Below are positions 34,060 through 47,622 of a stretch of 64,000 nt of DNA, piece after piece (position 1 is the first letter of the stretch; each line of letters opens with the position of its first letter). The stretch is from an uncultured Alphaproteobacteria bacterium (GTDB taxonomy: Bacteria > Pseudomonadota > Alphaproteobacteria > Micavibrionales > UBA1664): contig CALSUG010000006.1 of NCBI GenBank assembly GCA_943789475.1, positions 124,001 to 188,000 of the forward strand. The letters run 5' to 3'. The position numbers and the translations under genes are program-made. Under the pieces are notes generated by a model. That model did no database searches and was not told the DNA's origin. It saw only the letters and a program-made list of their open reading frames with translations.

Positions 34060-35886
34060 ATGACACATCAATTCAGAACACATAATTGCGCCCAATTGCG
34101 CGCCGAAAATGTTGGCGAAACTGTAAAATTATCCGGATGGATTCACCGTAAACGTGACCATGGAGGATTATTATTCGTTGATTTGCGCGATACACACGGC
34201 CTGACCCAATGTGTTATTGATACCGATCACGCACAGTTTGAAGAATTCGATGGATGGCGCGTTGAATCCGTTGTGACGATTACGGGTAAAGTGATCGCAA
34301 GATCGGACGAGACAACAAACGACAAATTACCAACCGGTGCAATTGAGGTCGGTATTGAGAGTGTTGAGTTACAATCATCCGCCGCGACATTACCATTCCA
34401 AGTTGCCGTTGATGACGGTGCGGGTGAAGATTTACGCCTACAATATCGCTTCCTCGATCTACGTCGTAAAGACATGCACGACAAAATTCGCCTGCGTAAT
34501 AATGTGATTTCATCCATGCGCCGTCGTATGGTTGATAAAGAATTTCAAGAATTCCAAACACCAATTTTGACGGCAAGTTCACCAGAAGGCGCACGTGATT
34601 ATTTGGTTCCATCACGTTTGCACCCAGGTCAGTTTTATGCTCTACCGCAAGCACCACAGCAATTTAAACAATTATTGATGATGTCAGGATTTGATAAATA
34701 TTTCCAAATCGCACCATGTTTCCGTGATGAAGATGGTCGCGCCGACCGTTTGGCTGAATTTTATCAATTGGATATCGAGATGTCATTTGTATCTCAGGAA
34801 GATGTTTTCAACACAATTCAACCTGTTATCGCGGGCATATTTGAAGAATTTAATGATTTCACGGGTACAGCCCACAAAATTGAATGGATGCCACATATCA
34901 CATATGCGGATTCAATGTTGAAATACGGGTCAGACAAACCTGACCTTCGTAATCCATTAGAAATCGTTGATGTAACATCCGTGTTTGCACGTGATGATGT
35001 TGAATTCAAAGCTTTTAAATCAATCGTTGAAAAAGGCGGCGTTGTTCGTGCCATTAAGGCGCCAAGTGTTGCCGATCAACCGCGTTCATTTTTTGATAAG
35101 CTGAACACTTGGGCACAAGGCGAAGGCGCATTTGGTATGGGTTATATCCAATTTGCCGAAGGTGAAGGTAAAGGCCCAATTGCAAAATTTGTAACAGGTG
35201 AGGCGCAAGCCGAATTACGCACGGCGATCAACGCGGTTGACGGCGATGCAGTATTTTTTGTTTGTGACAAGGTTGAAGCGGCCGAAAAAATGGCTGGTAA
35301 GGCACGTGACGCAATTTGTGATGCGTTACCAAGCGGTCATACACACGAACGCGAAAGTGGCGTATACAAATTCGCATGGATCGTTGATTACCCAATGTTT
35401 GAACGTGATGAGGAAACAGGAAAAATTGATTTCTCTCACAACCCATTTTCAATGCCACAAGGCGGAATGGATGCATTGGATTCTGACACACCTGAAAATG
35501 TTTTGGCATATCAATATGACTGTATCTGTAACGGTTTTGAACTATGTTCTGGTGCGATCCGTAACCACAAACCTGAAATCATGGAAAAGGCATTCGGCAT
35601 GGCCGGGTATGACCAATCCGTGTTGGAAGACAAATTTGGCGGTATGTTATCAGCGTTTAAATTTGGTGCACCTCCGCATGGTGGATGTGCATTCGGGATT
35701 GACCGTATCGTGATGTTGTTGGCGAATGAGCCCAACCTTCGTGAAGTGTATGCATTCGTGATGAATGGCCAATACCAAGATCTTATGATGTCCGCACCAA
35801 GCATGGTTGATAGTGCGCAATTGAAAGATTTGCACATCAAATTAGATACGCCAAAGGCAATGGTGAACAAGGACGAAGCAGCTTAA
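34060..35886 (+). CDS. aspS: Aspartyl-tRNA synthetase
   Basis: A 608-residue class II synthetase. It has an OB-fold anticodon domain ([19 protein letters not shown]), motif 2 region ([16 protein letters not shown]), a bacterial GAD insert around residues 300-420, and motif 3 GIDRIVMLL. The start follows AAGGAAA. Alphaproteobacterial AspRS enzymes often charge both tRNA-Asp and tRNA-Asn; whether that applies here depends on Gat genes elsewhere. Confidence 0.97.
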
Positions 35887-35897
35887 GAAAACGCTTT

Positions 35898-36626
35898 TTA
35901 TACAATTACAGGATTTAACCCGCGGAGATGATCGTCTTTGCGGGTTTCGTCTATCATATGCTGTAAATTTTTTAACATCACTTCACCATAATCAAATTGA
36001 CCTGCCCACAATGCAGGATACAATCCATCGTCTGGGCACTCATCTGCCTTTAACCCCTCAGGTATATGCGACCACAATTGAGCCAATTCATCATTATTTG
36101 TAATGCCCTCCGCTAAAAAGAAAGTGACAAACGCCTTTTCAATGGTCATTCCACCATCAGGTTGTCCATTCACACCCGTTCGAAAATCATCTGTCCAAAA
36201 TGTTTCCCGTTCAAACACAGTTCCCACATTAATATAGTTAAATGATGTTTGCCCTTTAACCTTATTAACCCGTAAACGCATATTCATGGGAGTAAATCGA
36301 TTATTATGCGTCCCTACTTTAAATTCCAACATTGATTGACGTCCAATAATAGCCGCACCAATTTCATTATCTGAGGGACAATAATCATCCGTAAACTTAA
36401 ACGGTAATTTATACTTATCATTCAAAGCATCGATGTATTCACCACAAAAATTAATCAGATAGCCTAACGCCTTTGTTCTCGTCATATAATCTGGTGTTTC
36501 CCGAACAGCAGGGATCGATGAAGGAAATGTCAACGAATGAACATTCATCGGTTGCACCACCTCGTTATTATTAAACGTCACACCACCCCACGCCTCCTTG
36601 GCTCTATCTAATGCTGATTTTATCAT
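35898..36626 (-). CDS. Hypothetical protein, ~242 aa
   Basis: Unrecognised soluble protein. The ATG at 36626 (MIKSALDRAKEAWGG) is chosen over one seven codons upstream that adds a poor N-terminus. No clear domain, signal or membrane part. It converges on aspS with a 12-bp gap and lies just left of the prophage remnant, so it may be the last chromosomal gene before it or part of that accessory region. Confidence 0.55.
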   Translation of the reverse strand: MIKSALDRAKEAWGGVTFNNNEVVQPMNVHSLTFPSSIPAVRETPDYMTRTKALGYLINFCGEYIDALNDKYKLPFKFTDDYCPSDNEIGAAIIGRQSMLEFKVGTHNNRFTPMNMRLRVNKVKGQTSFNYINVGTVFERETFWTDDFRTGVNGQPDGGMTIEKAFVTFFLAEGITNNDELAQLWSHIPEGLKADECPDDGLYPALWAGQFDYGEVMLKNLQHMIDETRKDDHLRGLNPVIV

Positions 36627-36658
36627 GTGAAAAATAAAAACACACAATATAAATTACG

Positions 36659-36913
36659 TCAATTTATTTCATAAAATTTTTGTATAGGATGACGGTAAAC
36701 AATGGACAATTGCCACAACCGTCCTGCACTTATACGATTTATCCCCATTTCATATTTTTGCAGTTGTTGGTAGGTCACTCCAATTTTATCAGACACATCC
36801 TTCAACGACATATCGCGCACCATACGGACGTGGTGTAACCCGACAGATAGGATGATAATTAGAAAAGAAACGGGATATAACGGTACATAACGGGATATAT
36901 CGGGACAAAACAC
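36659..36913 (-). pseudogene. XRE-type HTH regulator, damaged N-terminus
   Basis: The C-terminal ~60 residues are a good HTH_3 domain (MSLKDVSDKIGVTYQQLQKYEMGINRISAG, given here in two parts in mind: helix 2 SLKDVSDKIG, helix 3 TYQQLQKYE). The part upstream (SRYVPLYPVSFLIIIL) is not HTH-like and is encoded by a run of four 10-bp repeats, so it is not a natural start. No ATG sits at the expected start, before VGLHHVRMVRD. It may start at a rare codon or be a fragment. Related regulators act as phage or stress repressors. Confidence 0.5.
36867..36906. repeat. Four tandem 10-bp repeats
   Basis: Four consecutive 10-mers on the plus strand, GAAACGGGAT, ATAACGGTAC, ATAACGGGAT and ATATCGGGAC, share an (A/T)ACGG(G/T)A(T/C) pattern. 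The period is exactly one helical turn. The array lies directly upstream of the HTH fragment, where an operator would be expected. Confidence 0.7.
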
Positions 36914-37034: not shown

Positions 37035-37824
37035 CTATATTTCACGTGCCATAACACAGATGGCCTTACCCTGAATATCGATATCATCTTCATTTACCTC
37101 ATAGAGAGCCTAGTAATCCTTATTGTCAGAGATAATCATGACTTTCTTGGCAGGTAAGCGTTGCAACCGTTTTATTTGTGTTTCGCCATCAATGGCAATG
37201 AAAAACACGCCCTCTCTTGCGTTGGTGTGTTTTTCATCCTTTGAAAACACAACGTTTTCACCTTCTCTAGATCGTTGGATGCATGTGATCACCACTCATA
37301 AGACAGGAAAAAACATTTGTAGAATCAATATCAAATTTTTTGGTAATGGCTCCCCAATCAAGATCGATAGAATAGCCTGCAGGTTGTGATGATGTATCTT
37401 CCCCTGTCAGTAACCATTCAAGGGATACGCCGCCAACACGGGATATGCTCACAACAGAGGCAGCCTGTGGGGTTCTCATCCCATCAAGGTAGTCCAACAT
37501 GTTGTCGTGGTTAATGCCTGTTTCTTTCGCAAGTGCTTCTGATCCACCCATCTTATCGGCGAGTTCATTTAAACGCTCTGCAAAGGATTCGCTATATGTT
37601 GGTTCTCTGCCTGTTGCAAGCCACTGGATCGAAACACCACCAATATCTGCAATCAACCCCATTGGCTCTGACTTAGGGTCATTTCTTCCTGCAGAATAGT
37701 TGCTGAGAGTGCTTACAGGGATACCCGTTTTGGATGAAAACGAATCATAACCACCATTTTTTAGAATTAAAAACTTAATTCTGTCAGAAAGCGTTTTTGT
37801 TTCATCTTTTTTTGCTTGTTTCAT
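37035..37824 (-). pseudogene. Mu-like/CI-type repressor with S24-like domain, broken
   Basis: The N-terminal part (to 37267) has two HTH-like segments (FSSKTGIPVSTLSNYSAGRND; EALAKETGINHDNMLDYLDG, seen as separate motifs) and begins a LexA/CI C-terminal domain. The frame shifts right after GDHMHPTI; the rest (REGENVVFSKD, GETQIKRLQRLP, ISDNKDY) continues in another frame, stops at TAG 37110-37112, and could resume to 37035 (EVNEDDIDIQGKAICVMARE). The catalytic Ser of the GDSM motif is His here. The Lys of IKRLQ is kept. It faces the ner-like gene across the operator region. Not functional as a self-cleaving repressor. Confidence 0.75.
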
Positions 37825-38006: not shown

Positions 38007-38300
38007 ATGCCAAAAAAAATTCATAAAGAAGACGTTAAAGCGATGATCCGTAAAAAGGGATCAAACATGGAGGCCCTAGGGGTAAGCCATGGCCTTGGCA
38101 AATCTTCTATTAGTGCATCTTTTTGCGTCCCATCACCCACAGCCCATAAAGTCATATCCGCTTTTGTAGGACTTTCTGTCCAACGCATATGGCCTGAATG
38201 GTATGACGCTGATGGCAACCGCATCTATCAACCTAGAAAACAATCTATCGCAAAAAAACAATCACGTCACTGTCAAAAATCAAAAGGAGAATTAGCATGA
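38007..38300 (+). CDS. Ner-like DNA-binding regulator
   Basis: A 97-residue protein with the Ner/Nlp fold: DVKAMIRKKGSNMEALGVSHGL, SSISASF and VQRIWPEWYDADGNR. The last motif is diagnostic for Mu Ner homologues, which turn down early transcription by binding the control region. A basic tail (KKQSRHCQKSK) follows. The gene is intact, unlike the repressor. Its ATG follows AGGAAG. The next gene overlaps its end by 4 bp. Confidence 0.85.
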   Translation: MPKKIHKEDVKAMIRKKGSNMEALGVSHGLGKSSISASFCVPSPTAHKVISAFVGLSVQRIWPEWYDADGNRIYQPRKQSIAKKQSRHCQKSKGELA

Positions 38301-38788
38301 ACAGAAAAGATTGCCTTGATATGGCTATGGAATTTCACCCCGATACTGTTGAAGACTTAATATCGGATGCTCAAAACATATTTAGTTGGTTGAATGATGA
38401 ACTTGTCATTGATGCGGGTACTTGTTCCCCTGATCCTGAATTGGATCAACTTCTCGCAGATGCTCTAAAATCAAAAACAGTACAACCTAAACAAAAAAAC
38501 GTTTCATCCCATAACGATAATATACCTCATTACGATACAGAAACGATTACGACAAAAACAACAAAGTCAAATGATGATGAACCGATTCGGTCACCACAGG
38601 CAATTTACAACCTCATTAAATTGTTCATTGAAGAAGGTTCTGAACCTCGCCCCCGTGATTTAATCGAAGCAGGTGCATGTCAGAACGGTATCTACCATGC
38701 ATTAAAACAATTGGAAGATCAGAACAAAATAGAGCGTATCAGACTTGCGCCGCGCAATACCATTATTCGTTTAAAGGAGGTTGCGTAA
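38297..38788 (+). CDS. Hypothetical protein with winged-helix-like C-terminus
   Basis: A 163-residue protein. The middle is a low-complexity T/K/D-rich linker (~60-95); the end (IYNLIKLFIEEGSEPRPRDL, then NGIYHALKQLEDQNKIERI) looks like a small winged helix. The start overlaps the ner-like stop (ATGA) with upstream SD AAAAGGAGAA. Probably an early phage gene of regulatory type; not further identified. Confidence 0.6.
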   Translation: MNRKDCLDMAMEFHPDTVEDLISDAQNIFSWLNDELVIDAGTCSPDPELDQLLADALKSKTVQPKQKNVSSHNDNIPHYDTETITTKTTKSNDDEPIRSPQAIYNLIKLFIEEGSEPRPRDLIEAGACQNGIYHALKQLEDQNKIERIRLAPRNTIIRLKEVA

Positions 38789-38982
38789 TGAGACAGTCTT
38801 CTTTCCTACACCCCACATATGGATATTTCACGGAAATGGAATATGGAATTTTGCAGGCAAAAAACTTGTCACCTGCGGATATGAAACGCGCCGAGGCAAT
38901 CAAGAAGAAATCGGTTGAACGCAAAAAGGCCGTTCAAAAAATGGCCAAACTTAAACAGAAAATCGGAAACAAAGGAAAATAA
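38788..38982 (+). CDS. Small basic protein
   Basis: A 64-residue protein starting at ATG 38788, overlapping the previous stop (TAATG) and following the strong SD AAAGGAGG at 38773-38780. The C-terminal half is lysine-rich and helical (AEAIKKKSVERKKAVQKMAK). A longer upstream frame exists but ignores this start. Unrecognised. Confidence 0.6.
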   Translation: MRQSSFLHPTYGYFTEMEYGILQAKNLSPADMKRAEAIKKKSVERKKAVQKMAKLKQKIGNKGK

Positions 38983-38984
38983 AA

Positions 38985-39233
38985 ATGGATAACGTTACTA
39001 AAATTATAAACCACTCCGAATTGAAACAACAGTTGCAAGAAAGACGTGAAAGACAAGAAGGAGTGGATTTTCACGATGATATTATTCAAGCCCTTCGTCA
39101 TAAACGCCGCATCATTGATCGTGAAATGGACATTATTGATCACAAAATGAACCGTGTTCACAAAATGGAAAAAGAATGCGGTCAGTTAATCACTCTTTCA
39201 AATAAAATCAGACAAGAACAGGCAGACAAATAA
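38985..39233 (+). CDS. Small coiled-coil protein
   Basis: An 82-residue charged, helical protein (ELKQQLQERRERQEGVDF, then DREMDIIDHKMNRVHKMEKE) with an AAAGGAAA SD. It overlaps the next gene by one base. Unrecognised; small proteins in this place of Mu-like phages vary widely. Confidence 0.55.
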   Translation: MDNVTKIINHSELKQQLQERRERQEGVDFHDDIIQALRHKRRIIDREMDIIDHKMNRVHKMEKECGQLITLSNKIRQEQADK

Positions 39234-40008
39234 TGTCAAAGCGTCGCCCATACAGGGATAAGAACCAACCCAGTTTATTTGATTTTAGTGGCAATTTCAC
39301 GATTGGAACAATCAATATAAACCAAGGACATCAAAGCGAACCTGACGGAAGCCGTCACGAGTTTCTGTTGAAGCATATATCGGTGGTCCTGATTTTAAAG
39401 AGAAAGCCGAAGAGTTTCGCAAGAAATTATTAATGCCAGGTGCGGGTAAATTAGTTTTGCCGCATCAGGGCGAAATGAAGGTCATAGTTAAAAATCCTCG
39501 TCGGGTGCATCAATATAATGAAGTGGGTCTTGTTCGTTTTTCTATTGCCTTTGAAATCACAGACGAAGAACCAACAACAACGCAAGCACCATTACAAACA
39601 GTCTATGAATTAGGTAATGCAAAGACAGATGCCCTATCAGCATTTAAGCTGAATTTCTTAGCCGCCTATATCAGTAGCGCGCCTGATTTTGTATTGGATG
39701 ATATTATTGCCCAACACAGAGGAATTTAAAACCGTTTTAAAGGGTGTTTTAAATACGGTTGAATCGGTAATTAATTTGCCATCGATGCGCGTGTCATCGG
39801 CAACAGATTTGATCACTGATTTTGAAAATATCTTTAGTGATTTTGAAAATATATTTAAGCCATCTGTGCCTTTTGCATCTGTAATACAAGCAGATATTGA
39901 AGTGATTGAACCCGCCGATGCGGTGCAAGGTGTTATAGGTTTAACATCATCGGCATCAAAAAGCCGGTTCGATCAAGAAACATCATCTTTGAACACGCAA
40001 GCCATCCC
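39233..40008 (+). pseudogene. gp43-like DNA circularisation/tail protein, frameshifted and truncated
   Basis: Three frames join to one gp43-like protein. After ATG 39233 and an odd N-terminus, the frame shifts at ~39365 to VSVEAYIGGPDFKEKAEEF and GAGKLVLPHQGEMKVIVKNP, which match the DNA-circularisation N-terminal domain. It shifts again at ~39715, from DDIIAQ to TEEFKTVLKGVLNTVESV, and continues to ~40008, where the inverted segment begins. At ~260 residues it is much shorter than the usual 400-500. The N-terminal part before VSVEAY may be a fusion. Confidence 0.65.
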
Positions 40009-40213
40009 GATCCGCACCAAGGAATAAAACGATGGCTTTTGCACCAGGTAATGGATGATGTGAAAATCCTGCAGGCTGTAAAAATTCAAGATTTTTAATT
40101 TCTCCCGCTAACACTTCGACCTGTACGGCCATGTGCTTTCCCTTATCATTCACTGACTTCAATTCAGCACGGGCAATCATGTTTTTAACTTTGTTAATGA
40201 GGGTGTTAATCAT
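40004..40213 (-). pseudogene. gp45-like baseplate assembly protein V, N-terminal part
   Basis: Starts at ATG 40213 behind GGGGAGG. Residues NMIARAELKSVNDKGK, VQVEVLAGE and GFSHHPLPGAKAIVLFLGADRD match the N-terminal domain of Mu gp45 / baseplate V spike proteins. Homology ends at the inversion junction; the frame then runs to an accidental stop at 39983. The C-terminal part lies on the plus strand from 41007. Confidence 0.75.
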
Positions 40214-41010
40214 GGCTAGTTACCTCCCCACAAATCATCATCTTCTTGTTCTTGACGAACGGCAGGCAAGTCATATGCCTCTGGTGGCTTTACCAATATT
40301 TGTGTTGATGATCCCTCTGTCTCATGACGTGAAAATGTAACGCCACTGATCAACATATCTCGTGCAATATTCAAATCTTCATCTTTGGTTGGAACAAGTG
40401 TATTCAATTGCCAATATTCATTCTTGGCCGCGTACCATGACCCGACCGTATAATTGACATGAACGCCTTTGTAACGACGGTGACGAACCTCCCACTCGGC
40501 TCGCTCTTGCATATCAAGGTCGTAGCCATTTTTTTCTGCAATAATGACTAAGGGGCGATAGCGTTTGATTGCATGATCATATGCAATACCTTTTGCATGT
40601 GCATTATCACTCGCACTACTAAGGTCATTGGCTGATGACTGGCCTTTAACGGTAATGATTGAATAACGATCTTGATGCGAAACATCCGCGGATCTCGTTT
40701 CTATATTATGGCCCAATGTTAATTGCCCATTACTACGTTTTGAACTTGGTTGTGCTAAAATCATACCACCAACACCATCTGATATTGGCCTTAAACCACG
40801 ATAACGGCATGCACGCTCAATGAACGCAAATGCTGTTTCGCCTGGCTCAATAGATAATTTTTGAAATGCGCGGCCGACATCACCTGACACCTGAACATTC
40901 ATGTCAAAAGGCTTGAGAACAATCTCAGCGATCTTATCCAATTTCATATTTGTAAATTCATATGGCCCATCAATTGTTGCGGCACAATCAACTAAATCAG
41001 CGAAACGATC
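40009..41010. other. Inverted ~1-kb segment inside the baseplate genes
   Basis: Genes on both sides are on the plus strand in Mu order, but this segment holds gp44-like and the first part of gp45-like on the minus strand. The gp45 halves rejoin well (LFLGADRD from 40004-40213 minus to DRGVVVGIEHPD from 41007 plus) if the segment is flipped. Both ends contain GATC (40009-40012, 41007-41010). No longer inverted repeat is visible. The N-terminal part of gp44 does not reappear at the left junction. Confidence 0.72.
40216..41007 (-). pseudogene. gp44-like baseplate hub protein, N-terminus missing
   Basis: The minus frame is open from the right junction (RFADLVDCAATIDGPYEF at ~41007) to TAA at 40216, ~263 residues. 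An ATG at 40947 lies inside it. DLVDC, PFDM and the FIERACRYRGLRPISDG region match the Mu gp44/P hub family, which carries the central baseplate. The ~75-90 N-terminal residues expected before DLVDC are absent because the inversion breakpoint cuts there. Its stop is 2 bp before the gp45-like start. Confidence 0.72.
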
Positions 41011-41348
41011 GCGGCGTTGTTGTAGGGATTGAACATCCAGATTATAGACCTAAAGATAAAAAGCCAGGGGAAACGATTATTCATGACGCATCAGGGCAGC
41101 AAATTTATTTGAAAGATGACGGATCTATTCATATCAAAACCAATGGAAAACTCACCATCGATGCGAATGAAAAAGTTCGTGTGAATACACCTCGTTTTGA
41201 GGTTACAGGACACATCATTGATAATGTTGATGCCACTGGTCAAACCATGTCTGACATGCGGGATATTTTCAATATTCATACGCATCACGAAAATGATGTT
41301 CAGGGTGAGACAGACCAACCAACCCAACAAATGGGAGGTAGCTCATGA
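41007..41348 (+). pseudogene. gp45-like baseplate assembly protein V, C-terminal part
   Basis: In-frame from the right junction: DRGVVVGIEHPDYRPKDK, GETIIHDASGQQIYLKDDGS and a beta-repetitive tail ending THHENDVQGETDQPTQQ. This is the spike C-terminal half of the gp45 family. An ATG at 40962 gives an open frame but its first ~15 residues are antisense to gp44 coding. It overlaps gp46 by 4 bp (ATGA), as in an intact phage operon. Confidence 0.75.
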
Positions 41349-41830
41349 GAATGATATTAAATGAAAATGGTCTTCTTGATTTTGATTTTGGTGCAACTGG
41401 TATTCGCCAAGATTTAACATTGGAGACGGCTTATCTTTTATCTGTTTTGACAGACCGCCGCGCAGATGTTGATGATGAGTTACCATTCCCAGAAGAACCA
41501 AGTTTATTGCCACCAGATCGTCGCGGGTATGTGGGGGATATTTTAGATGAAAAAGGTCGACTAATAGGCTCTAAATTATGGCTTTTATCTCGTGAAATAA
41601 CATCCGAAAAAACACGTCGTCGCGCTGAAAGATATGTACGTGAATCTGTGCAATGGGCCATAGATGACGGATATGTTTCTGAAAATACTATTAACGCATT
41701 TTACGATAGAGAAAATCACCAGTGCCTCAATATTCTTGTTGAACCTGTCGTCATTGATGGCATCGGTTTCAAACTAAACTTAACCAATGTTTTAACCCCC
41801 AATGTAAACGAGGTTTTAAATGTCATTTAA
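41345..41830 (+). CDS. gp46-like phage baseplate protein
   Basis: A 161-residue intact protein. GIRQDLTLETAYLLSVLTDRRA and GSKLWLLSREITSEKTRRRAE, with YVRESVQWAIDDG, match the Mu gp46 family (baseplate wedge). It overlaps gp45 by 4 bp and gp47 by 11 bp. The reading frame is clean. Without other tail genes it has no known use here. Confidence 0.82.
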   Translation: MRMILNENGLLDFDFGATGIRQDLTLETAYLLSVLTDRRADVDDELPFPEEPSLLPPDRRGYVGDILDEKGRLIGSKLWLLSREITSEKTRRRAERYVRESVQWAIDDGYVSENTINAFYDRENHQCLNILVEPVVIDGIGFKLNLTNVLTPNVNEVLNVI

Positions 41831-42878
41831 TACTGAAACACCACAAACAATTCAACGCCGCCAAGAAGCAGAAGCAGAAATGGTTTTGCCAGGATCAAGT
41901 CCACGCATTGCAAATACACCTGAAGCATTAGTTACACGGGCAACAACACTGGCAGGATATGAACTTCATAAGCATATAGATGAAGAGGCGAAAGAAATTT
42001 TACCGCACACGGCCACACGCACACTTCCCCAACATGGGAGCATGCAATCGGTTGATCAGAAAAGTGAAAATAAGGCTCAAGGTATTGCTCGATTTACAGG
42101 TATTGATGGCGCAATTATACCTGCCCTTACCATCATTCAACGTGCTGATAATGTTCAATTCGTCACCACTGCCGATGTGACAATTGTGGGCACAACAGCA
42201 AATGGTACGATTGAAGCCGTTAATGCAGGTGCAAATGGTAATACACCCGCGGCAACGAACCTTGAATTAATTTCACCTCTTATTGGAATTGAAAGCACCG
42301 TGATTGTTGATGTTGACGGTTTGTCTTTGGGTGCTGATATAGAAAGAGTAGAGCCTTATAGAGAACGTATATTGGAGCAATGGCGACAACCTCCCCATGG
42401 CGGTGCATTGTTTGATTACGCATATTGGGCCAAGGAAGTGGTCGGTGTAACAAGAGCATGGCCATTTCTAAATTTAGTGCAGGGGATTCCTGTTTCAATC
42501 ACTTTTGTTATAGATGATCGAGAAGATATTTTCCCAACCGCGTTAGAGGTAGCCGCCGTTGAAGAATACATTGATTCACAACGACCTGTTGGCGCATTGT
42601 TTGAGGTGTTTGCCCCTACCGCTAAATCAATCGACATGGAGATTGGTTTAAATCCAAATACTGTTGCGGTGCAAGAAACGGTTCGAGCAGAATTAGAAGA
42701 TTTTTTCAAACGTGAGGCCGAGCCAGGAAAGACACTGCGCCTATCTAGATTGCAAGAATCAATTTTGGTGGCCACAGGTGAATTTCATCATGTTTTGATA
42801 ACGCCTAACGCCGATATTGTCGCGGATGAATCTGAACTACCGATCCTTGGGACAATCACATGGAGTTTAGCGACATGA
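41820..42878 (+). CDS. gp47-like baseplate J protein
   Basis: A 352-residue intact protein of the baseplate J family: ARFTGIDGAIIPALTIIQRADN, GTIEAVNAGANGNTPA, ERVEPYRERILEQWRQPPHGG and the AYWAKEVVGVTRAW block are typical. It forms part of the baseplate wedge of contractile tails. It overlaps gp48 by 4 bp (ATGA). Confidence 0.88.
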   Translation: MSFNTETPQTIQRRQEAEAEMVLPGSSPRIANTPEALVTRATTLAGYELHKHIDEEAKEILPHTATRTLPQHGSMQSVDQKSENKAQGIARFTGIDGAIIPALTIIQRADNVQFVTTADVTIVGTTANGTIEAVNAGANGNTPAATNLELISPLIGIESTVIVDVDGLSLGADIERVEPYRERILEQWRQPPHGGALFDYAYWAKEVVGVTRAWPFLNLVQGIPVSITFVIDDREDIFPTALEVAAVEEYIDSQRPVGALFEVFAPTAKSIDMEIGLNPNTVAVQETVRAELEDFFKREAEPGKTLRLSRLQESILVATGEFHHVLITPNADIVADESELPILGTITWSLAT

Positions 42879-43513
42879 TCCGCACCCAAGAACATTATCT
42901 TAACTTGCTTTTAAATGATTTTTTGCCAGTGGGACAGTTGGACAAAAGTCCTGAGAGCAATATTGCTAAAGTGTTAAGTATTCCTGCAAAAGAATTTGCT
43001 TATATCGATGCCAGGACAAAATTGTTGCGTCAGGAATCGGATCCGCGCACGACTTATCATTTGTTGGATGAGTGGGAATTTTGTGCAGGGTTACCTGATG
43101 CATGTGATGTGGGTGAAAAGACATTAGAAGAACGCCGCAATCGTCTTTTTCAAAAAGTCACGTCTGTTGGTGGTGCATCACGCCAGTATTTCAAACAGAT
43201 TGCCGAAAATCTTGGATATGACACAACGATTGAAGAGTACAGACCATTGGAATGTGGTGATTTTGAATGTGGTGACTATACGGTTGAACAAGCGGACGGT
43301 GTTTTGCTTTACGGATTATCCGACACATTAAATCATACATTTGATTGGAACATGCGTGTTCACGGTCACCGTATTACCCCCTTTGAATGTGGGGTGAGCG
43401 AGTGCGGTGATTATATGGCCAACATTACAGAAGCAGAAGATTTGGCATGCATTTTATCAAACCTTAAACCTGCACATACACATTTATCAACAATCTATGA
43501 AGAGGAGGAATAA
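42875..43513 (+). CDS. gp48-like (YmfQ/DUF2313) tail protein
   Basis: A ~212-residue protein starting at ATG 42875 (MIRTQEHYLNLLLNDFLP), overlapping the gp47 stop; an in-frame ATG at 42860 adds five residues. The sequence TYHLLDEWEFCAGLPDACD and RNRLFQKVTSVGGASRQYFKQ match the DUF2313 family, with repeated ECGDF/ECGDY motifs at the end. It joins the baseplate to the tail fibre. Intact. Confidence 0.84.
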   Translation: MIRTQEHYLNLLLNDFLPVGQLDKSPESNIAKVLSIPAKEFAYIDARTKLLRQESDPRTTYHLLDEWEFCAGLPDACDVGEKTLEERRNRLFQKVTSVGGASRQYFKQIAENLGYDTTIEEYRPLECGDFECGDYTVEQADGVLLYGLSDTLNHTFDWNMRVHGHRITPFECGVSECGDYMANITEAEDLACILSNLKPAHTHLSTIYEEEE

Positions 43514-43515
43514 AC

Positions 43516-43983
43516 ATGGAATATGTCCCACCAATTAACGGCGATCAGGGTGATCCAGATCGCGCCTATATAAACAAAGATCCATTAAACGTAGACCCAA
43601 ATTTACGCCGTGGATCACAACCACCTGCGGCGGCTATTGAGCATCCAATGCGTGAAATTACAAATGTCATCACTGCGGCAGGCTTGACACCTGATGGTGG
43701 CGATTTAACCCAATTATCACAAGCAATTGCTGCATTAATTTTAGCGAATGCGACAAGTGTTGATCCTGCGACTACAACTGCGGCAGGTATTGTTGAAAAC
43801 GCAACACCAAGTGAGGTGAAAAACGAAACCGCAGGTAAAAACATCATCGCTGATAATGCTAAACACATTAATGGTGTAGCCAAGGCGTTTGGATCATTCA
43901 ATGGTAAATTGGGCGTATCTATTTTTAACAGTTACGGCATTGCAAGCATTGTTCGTAATTCGTCTGGTGTTTATCTGTCATAA
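43516..43983 (+). pseudogene. Tail-fibre / collar protein, truncated
   Basis: 155 residues start well (PPINGDQGDPDRAYINKDPL, a fibre N-terminus) with a typical middle and end abruptly in AFGSFNGKLGVSIFNSYGIA...SGVYL followed by a stop. Phage fibres continue here with a beta-rich stretch. The last residues are encoded by DNA that also codes the end of the GGDEF frame on the other strand, so the phage sequence ends at ~43978. The prophage boundary cuts this gene. Confidence 0.75.
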
Positions 43984-44437
43984 TAATAACAAATTCATCA
44001 CCGCCAGGATTTCCAAGAATATCTGTTTCACGAAAACCAAATTTTTTAATAACCTCTGCAAATTTTTCGAGCGCCTGATCACCAACCTGCAAATTATAAT
44101 CATCATTAATTCGTTTAAAACCAGCCAAATCAATACTAACGATTACACCACCCTTTGATTGTCCACGATCAATTCGATTTTGCTCTTGTGAAAGCGCCTT
44201 TTCAAAACCACGATCATTAAGCAACCCTGTTAATTGCTTTGTATTTACAAGATTACTCAACTGTTCAATAAGAACATCTCTTTGATGTATAGCAAGTGCT
44301 TGATTATTTATCTCACCTGCCATTTCCCACAACAGATCCTCCGCGTGCTCTACATCACGTGGCCTCTCCCCTCTCGTAAGCTTACTCATAATATTGACCG
44401 CTTGATTAGATAAAATTCTTGTGTCTGTTGGTTTCAT
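43925..44437 (-). pseudogene. GGDEF protein, C-terminus lost at the prophage edge
   Basis: From ATG 44437 the protein runs 170 residues: a helical N-terminus with TRGERPRDVEHAED, then a GGDEF domain start (DRGFEKALSQEQNRID, VIVSIDLAGFKRINDDYN, GNPGGDEFVIIM). The domain should go on for ~80 more residues. Instead it enters prophage sequence after GGDEFVIIMTD and stops. The GGDEF active-site motif is intact but the fold is incomplete. The missing end is not recognisable at the left side of the remnant. Confidence 0.78.
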
Positions 44438-44505
44438 AATTACATTTATACGCAATATTTATTTTTATGTCAATATACAACCGCACAAAAGTTTAAAAAA
44501 AATAA

Positions 44506-45485: not shown

Positions 45486-45517
45486 ACCCATCCATGAATT
45501 TGGTGGGTGTTTTTTTA
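45486..45517 (+). terminator. Rho-independent terminator
   Basis: ACCCATCC pairs with GGTGGGT (one bulged base) across a short loop (45486-45508) and is followed by a run of seven T (45510-45516). It ends the 294-aa gene. Confidence 0.75.
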
Positions 45518-45539
45518 TGTCCGTGATATTCTATTCTTA

Positions 45540-46487
45540 ATGAATAAAGATAATATCCTCCCCCTTCTCACTTCACCGCAAAATTGGCAGTGGGGCGAAT
45601 TTAAAAATAACGACAGACAACAAATTCGCTATGGATGGAATGCACCCGATGATCCAAAGGCGTTGATTATAATTGCCGAGGGACGCACGGAATGCATTGA
45701 AGAATATTTTGAAATCATTCGCGAATTAAATGCCAAAGGATATGCGTGCGCAATTATGGATTGGCAAGGACACGGTTTATCCTATCGTCATTTTGATGAC
45801 AATAGCCGTCAACATTCATACGGTTTTGATCGTGACATTGATGAATTTTCATTATTCTTATCCAAAATAGATGGGATTCAAGAATTGAAAGAATTACCAA
45901 AAGTACTGATGGCACATTCAATGGGGGGGAATATCACATTACGTTATATGGCGGAAAACCCTGATACTTTTAAATGTGCCTATCTCATTGCTCCAATGCT
46001 TGGCCTTCAACCAAAGCGAATTATTAAATACATCGCCCCAATAATCTTGCGTGCCGCCTCGTCACTCAAGCGAATGCACAAACATGCCTTGGGGCAAACA
46101 AAGTGGAATGAAACATTCGCCAATATTGCAAAACACAAGGTCTCAAGCGACCCCATACGCCGAAACAAACAGCCTTATTTATTCAAAACACAACCTGAAC
46201 TCAGGTGTGGTGGTGTAACCTTTGGATGGCTACACCACGCATTACAATCCATCGCGATGCTACAAACCTCAGAGCTATGCAACAAAATCACAACACCCAC
46301 ATTCATCGCCATTGCCGGAAAGGATGTGGTTGTTGATAATCAAAAATCAAAAAACACAGCTACCTTATTACCCAAATGTGAAACACAAATATTCGATGGT
46401 GCAGAACATCAAATCCACGCCGAACGTGATGAAATTAGGAATGTTCTTCTAGACAGCCTACATGATTTTTTTGGAAAACACTTGTAA
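45540..46487 (+). CDS. Alpha/beta hydrolase (monoacylglycerol-lipase-like)
   Basis: A 315-residue hydrolase. The ATG at 45540 is chosen; an earlier in-frame start lies in the terminator. It has the nucleophile motif AHSMGG, a DWQGHGLS strand-turn, and the late acid/histidine region (AGKDVVVDNQKS, GAEHQIHAE). The family acts on acyl esters; the substrate is unknown. A second related gene follows 31 bp later. Confidence 0.85.
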   Translation: MNKDNILPLLTSPQNWQWGEFKNNDRQQIRYGWNAPDDPKALIIIAEGRTECIEEYFEIIRELNAKGYACAIMDWQGHGLSYRHFDDNSRQHSYGFDRDIDEFSLFLSKIDGIQELKELPKVLMAHSMGGNITLRYMAENPDTFKCAYLIAPMLGLQPKRIIKYIAPIILRAASSLKRMHKHALGQTKWNETFANIAKHKVSSDPIRRNKQPYLFKTQPELRCGGVTFGWLHHALQSIAMLQTSELCNKITTPTFIAIAGKDVVVDNQKSKNTATLLPKCETQIFDGAEHQIHAERDEIRNVLLDSLHDFFGKHL

Positions 46488-46518
46488 TTTACCATAATTT
46501 ATTGCTATTCTCATCTCT

Positions 46519-47622
46519 ATGAACAAAGATGAAATTATAGATACACTAAGACATGATCCAAAGGCAGAGGATTTACGCACGCATTTCCTTAACGACCTGA
46601 ATGATATCAATTTTAACCGATTGATTAATGATCATTTGACACCCCCTACCGATTGGCATGAAGGTGATTATACCACATCTGATGGATGGAAATTACGCCA
46701 TACATTTTCATCCATAGCAAATCCAAAAGCATTGCTTGTCATTTTACAAGGACGCGCCCAATCCGCACATGAATATTACGATTTCATCAATCGTGCACAT
46801 GATAAAGGTTATGCCGTATTCACATTTGATCGTCGTTCACACGGTAATTCGCAACAATATTTCACCGATGGACGTACCGACCACCATATTCCCGACATTA
46901 TGTTACAGGTCAGTGACGTTGCCGAAATCATGGAACATGTTGTTAAGCCATCTCAATATGGCAACCTGCCTCGTGCTATCGTTGGGCATTCAATGGGGGG
47001 CGCGGAAACCGCGTCACATTTAAAAACATATCAAGATGATTTTAAAGCCGCAGTTTACCTCGCCCCGATGTTTGCTATACATGTAGGACAAAACAAAGTG
47101 AGTAATTTTCTCTTACGCAAGTTACAAACTCCAATCTTGTGGAATGTAAAAAATGTCGGCCCACACATATCAGCAAAACTTCTTAACTGGTTCGGGCAAG
47201 AACATTTAGGTTTAGAAAGTCGTGCCAAGTTTTCATCACCATGGGATATGGCCATTGAAAAAGAAACATTCTCTCCACGAAAAAGTGATGATCTCGTTGG
47301 ACAATCAATCCAACCAACATTAACGACATTAAGACGTGCAAAGCAAGTTGGCACACCCACATGGGGAACAGCACAAGAATGCCTTCGTATGACAAGCATG
47401 ATCCAACAAAAAGGATTTTTTGACGATATAAAAACACCGAGCCTTAATCTATTGTCTGAGGTCGATTTTGCAAATGATACACCGCTAATGCAGGAAATGA
47501 GTAAAGACACAGGCATGGAAACTGTTGTTATGCCAGGACGTCATCAAACATTAAACGAAGTTCCGGATATAAAAGAAGAGGCATATACGCGCATGTTTAA
47601 TTTTTTAAAGATGCATCTTTAA
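46519..47622 (+). CDS. Second alpha/beta hydrolase (paralogue)
   Basis: A 367-residue protein with VGHSMGG as nucleophile elbow, FDRRSHGNS as the oxyanion-side motif and MPGRHQTLNE for the catalytic His. It resembles the upstream hydrolase in order of motifs and N-terminal WKLRHTF start, so the pair probably arose by duplication. It is longer by ~50 residues at the N-terminus. Substrate unknown. Confidence 0.83.
   Translation: MNKDEIIDTLRHDPKAEDLRTHFLNDLNDINFNRLINDHLTPPTDWHEGDYTTSDGWKLRHTFSSIANPKALLVILQGRAQSAHEYYDFINRAHDKGYAVFTFDRRSHGNSQQYFTDGRTDHHIPDIMLQVSDVAEIMEHVVKPSQYGNLPRAIVGHSMGGAETASHLKTYQDDFKAAVYLAPMFAIHVGQNKVSNFLLRKLQTPILWNVKNVGPHISAKLLNWFGQEHLGLESRAKFSSPWDMAIEKETFSPRKSDDLVGQSIQPTLTTLRRAKQVGTPTWGTAQECLRMTSMIQQKGFFDDIKTPSLNLLSEVDFANDTPLMQEMSKDTGMETVVMPGRHQTLNEVPDIKEEAYTRMFNFLKMHL

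Follow-up and report, generated by a model that had tools for sequence, protein, structure and literature searches.

The window, the 64-kb stretch of DNA analyzed here, is part of a contig of 292,723 bases in a genome of 1.97 Mb that is assembled in 9 contigs and whose aspS gene is nearest, at 82-83%, to those of MAGs labelled Alphaproteobacteria NORP145 and Micavibrio sp. UBA1664. Between aspS (34060-35886) and a minus-strand GGDEF gene that extends up to 44455, both belonging to the host, lies a Mu-like relic of ∼7 kb, as compared with ∼30 kb for an intact relative. The features of the relic are as follows.

37110..37824, minus: CI-type repressor pseudogene, HTH part at 37267-37824 and an S24-like part that lies in a different frame (37110-37295) (Pfam Phage_CI_repr)
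38007..38300, plus: Ner-like regulator, HTH_35 (Pfam HTH_35 E=8e-14; PHROG 769)
38297..39230, plus: small early genes with no assigned function (ORFs; no significant family match)
39233..39366, plus: fusion zone, where an early ORF reads into gp43 at about residue 54 (ORFs, alignment, G084 gene set)
39367..40003, plus: gp43 (DNA circularisation protein) fragment, about residues 54-272 (PHROG 184 E=2e-11; DNA_circ_N; alignments)
40004..40006: left joint, ATC, where gp43 (NTQA-I) and gp45 may overlap by 3 bp (alignment, joint comparison)
40004..40213, minus: gp45 N-terminal part, inverted, start codon at 40213 (PF06890 E=4e-15; tblastn to relatives)
40216..41013, minus: gp44 (gpP, baseplate hub), inverted, about residue 92 to the end (PF22255, PF21929; tblastn; alignment)
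41007..41013: right joint, GATCGCG microhomology of gp44 and gp45 (4 bases well supported, 7 likely)
41007..41348, plus: gp45 C-terminal part, not inverted (tblastn to relatives; alignment)
41345..41830, plus: gp46 (PF07409 E=5e-25)
41820..42878, plus: gp47, baseplate J (PF04865 E=5e-58)
42860..43513, plus: gp48 (PF10076 E=3e-24)
43516..43975, plus: tail fibre, truncated (PHROGs tail fibre families; tblastn to relatives)
43967..44455, minus: host GGDEF gene, cut short at its boundary with the tail fibre gene (PF00990; homologues extend beyond)

A decaying prophage and its host locus

The preliminary description of this DNA had taken the element for a phage; it is instead a degraded prophage within a bacterial chromosome. 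The gp43-gp48 baseplate gene set is present by Pfam and PHROG, as is a left end with a leftward repressor and a rightward Ner, the latter with homologues in three relatives. The second frame of the repressor matches loci of intact relatives, also in three-frame translation. We refer to the element as a remnant rather than a complete prophage because transposase and head genes are absent: no ORF from 36.9 to 44 kb has the size of a transposase gene and gpT, the Mu-type capsid gene, finds no match in the whole genome. (The PF09299 profile finds no match in the genome either, as is also the case for its control.) Relative to the intact prophage of genome G084 the early region leads directly into gp43, with transposase, B, portal, F, gpT, sheath and tape measure gone; at the fusion zone everything from the transposase to gp42 is missing, together with the gp43 N-terminus. 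Further lesions of the same relic include frameshifts in the repressor and in gp43 (near 39700, from alignments) and the truncation at the fibre/GGDEF boundary. The frames of the gp44 part, gp46, gp47 and gp48 remain open, so that the decay would be either young or slow. As a separate observation, the intact G084 prophage encodes a Mu F-like protein with a C-terminal PBECR2 nuclease-like domain (L041, 1826-3082).

In a genome of the same genus (G004) aspS, an HTH gene and GGDEF genes follow one another in that order on a single 7.4-kb contig, and searches of that genome with gp44 and gp47 gave no match. Since the host order is the same there, with no match to these two genes, the prophage must have entered between the aspS and GGDEF host genes. 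At 43516-44455 the cut-off tail fibre gene abuts the cut-off GGDEF gene, and a search of the window with a homologue from the same genus did not recover the absent half of the latter; a single loss thus probably removed the right end of the prophage along with part of the host gene. Several neighboring ORFs may be mentioned in passing. Downstream of aspS is an ORF of 249 residues (35898-36647) with no Pfam or PADLOC match, followed by a small HTH gene (36659-36913) that has a homologue in the same position beside aspS in G004; its PADLOC matches (RmrA) are weak, cover the HTH part only and say little. An adjacent pair of alpha/beta-hydrolase-like genes at 45507-47622 is, judging from the translations only, probably an old duplication.

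The inverted block and the missing DNA

The preliminary description reported an inverted 1-kb segment that splits gp44 and gp45, and this is what we find. A block running from 40004 to about 41006-41010, single copy in the genome and comprising the first ∼70 codons of gp45 and the C-terminal three quarters of gp44, lies on the minus strand between the plus-strand gp43 pieces and the plus-strand C-terminal part of gp45 with gp46-gp48. We compared the gene order with that of 14 relatives. All six prophage loci from bacteria of the same taxonomic order are collinear by tblastn, gp43-gp44-gp45-gp46-gp47-gp48 in a single direction (with gp43 detected in three of the six), and gp44-gp48 are likewise collinear in each of eight annotated phages, Mu included. 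The inverted arrangement was found in none of the 14. A shared order in related phages, which the preliminary description had proposed as a check that could overturn the inversion, is absent from the relatives examined. Because all relatives and phages examined are collinear, the inversion is derived in the genome of the window. The rearrangement is known from this one genome, as assembled sequence only; no near-identical DNA was found in phages and E. coli genomes, the exact left-joint sequence did not occur in viral contigs, and searches for gp47 by peptide patterns in genome and viral contig collections yielded no confirmed case.

Together with the inversion, gp43 has lost its end and gp44 its first ∼90 codons, about 664 bp relative to L024, one of two different Mu-like prophage loci of genome G013 (the other being L029; contigs 54 and 56, respectively), while the inverted block itself measures 1,007 bp as against 1,022 bp in L024. 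The gp44 proteins of L024 and L029 are 44% and 30% identical to that of the window. Loss of the gp44 N-terminus had been noted previously and is confirmed by the G084 protein, for which the match begins at residue 92 of 364; that gp43 has likewise lost about 130 residues at its C-terminus had been missed. A search with gp43 matches only the middle part of this protein in the genome of the window, and neither the lost gp43 piece nor the lost gp44 piece was found elsewhere in the genome.

Sequences at the two joints

The comparison places each joint with an accuracy of a few bases. For gp45 an alignment of the 14 relatives was used, in which the spacing between the PGA motif and YR, counted by hand, is 27 residues in most sequences. 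Joining the window gp45 as GADRD/RGVVVG, with one shared Asp codon, gives 27 residues and joining it as GADR/GVVVG, at the first GATC, gives 25. Since the former fits and the latter does not, the break is placed, on this count, in the second Asp-Arg pair, GATCGC. It had been proposed that flipping the segment rejoins gp45 at GADRD/DRGVVVG, and it does so with the spacing of the family restored.

At the left joint, AAGCC/ATC/CCGATCC, the ATC is the gp45 Asp codon on the other strand. It may also belong to the NTQA-I of gp43, as suggested by NSQAI in L024, whose gp43 is 36% identical to that of the window. The GATC at 40009 lies inside the block and is gp45's own Asp-Arg codon pair. At the right joint, GAAAC/GATCGCG/GCGTT, GATC (41007-41010) fits both the Asp-Arg-Phe of gp44 and the Asp-Arg of gp45, and the overlap would probably extend to GATCGCG if the preceding gp44 arginine codon was CGC; the 4 bases are well supported and anything longer depends on the ancestral bases of the lost sides. 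For random joints in the window an overlap of at least 4 bp has a probability of 0.02 and one of at least 7 bp a probability of 0.0006. The earlier statement that both junctions contain GATC thus holds on the right, and fails on the left where the ATC of 40004-40006 is preceded by C, whereas the accompanying statement that neither carries a long inverted repeat was verified by a repeat search. Since a GATC occurs within 6 bp of about 5% of random points, its presence near a single joint means little either way.

Origin of the rearrangement

The explanation that we consider highly probable is a microhomology-mediated inversion-deletion during the decay of a Mu-like prophage, the host being an alphaproteobacterium close to Micavibrio. 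On this account gp43, gp44 and gp45 would have been broken and the ends rejoined wrongly. The gp44-gp45 piece would have been reinserted backwards via an inverted match of only GATC or, probably, GATCGCG, and everything between the gp43 and gp44 break points, from the C-terminal end of the former to the N-terminal part of the latter, would have dropped out, the ends being joined at ATC; we infer repair by microhomology-mediated end joining or by template switching. A natural inversion and deletion, one of two possibilities raised at the outset, is supported by the 14 collinear relatives and by the absence of the lost pieces from the genome. We take both to be one event, because a separate deletion would have had to stop precisely where the inversion joint lies. 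A variant with two events is possible, if doubtful: gp44 and gp45 match as a true inverted repeat, which would be enough alone for the right joint, and the left one would result if the DNA from gp43 up to the newly formed joint were then deleted, at ATC, yet one event is simpler.

The second possibility raised was an artefact, that is an assembly or library chimera in which, for example, fragments cut at GATC were then ligated. The GATC at the right joint and the restriction of the arrangement to a single genome speak for such a chimera. Ligation at GATC sites would, however, leave GATC at 40003-40006, where the bases are in fact CATC (GCC/ATC), and it is ruled against because the length of gp45 fixes the break at that point; GATC is thus not found exactly at every joint. 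More generally, the block is single copy and free of repeats that might mislead an assembler, the lost gp43/gp44 part occurs nowhere else in the assembly, and the contig is long, with several other lesions in the relic. A chimera of any kind is in our estimation unlikely. Far less probable still is a programmed, reversible inversion. An invertible segment does occur in Mu-like phages, the G segment of Mu, but that segment is located elsewhere, downstream in the fibre genes. Neither inverted repeats nor recombination sites bound the block on its two sides (the match is 4-7 bp only, at one joint), and no recombinase is recognised by Pfam or PHROG among the ORFs of the relic. The other orientation, moreover, would not restore gp44, as its N-terminal part is deleted. 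Equally remote is a recurrent enzyme-driven flip, for example by breakage at GATC codons and religation with end trimming, that would inactivate the prophage baseplates of the lineage.

The rearrangement is thus best read as a microhomology-mediated inversion-deletion, and as a lesion it is ordinary and sharply delimited, in a Mu-like prophage that is decaying. It leaves gp43, gp44 and gp45 broken and has no evident function. In the window these three genes are pseudogenes, and the intact-looking gp46-gp48 should not be annotated as a working baseplate or tailocin. Significance beyond annotation is slight, the locus being a small and well delimited example of inversion-deletion with microhomology in a decaying prophage.

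Our search found no literature on Mu-like prophages in Micavibrio. The closest points of reference are the following. Outside the block, gp43-gp48 of Escherichia phage Mu (NC_000929) are the same genes in the same order, with gp47 of Mu 33% identical to that of the window over 99% of its length; Mu is intact, whereas the relic has broken gp43-gp45 genes and lacks roughly 23 kb. The prophage of G084 (contig 6, about 66-98 kb), from the same taxonomic order, is 44% identical in gp44, 50% in the C-terminal part of gp45, 46% in gp46 and 46% in gp48, but has the normal order and retains transposase, portal, gpT and sheath. The G segment of Mu, flipped by Gin, likewise inverts within the late region of a Mu-type phage; the inversion in the window affects other genes, has no recombinase or recombination sites and is not restorable. 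Finally, cryptic (grounded) prophages, for which a review is available (PMC6379469), share with the relic partial deletion, frameshifts and loss of mobility genes. In our judgement a small inversion is a less usual lesion among such prophages, and otherwise nothing essential differs.
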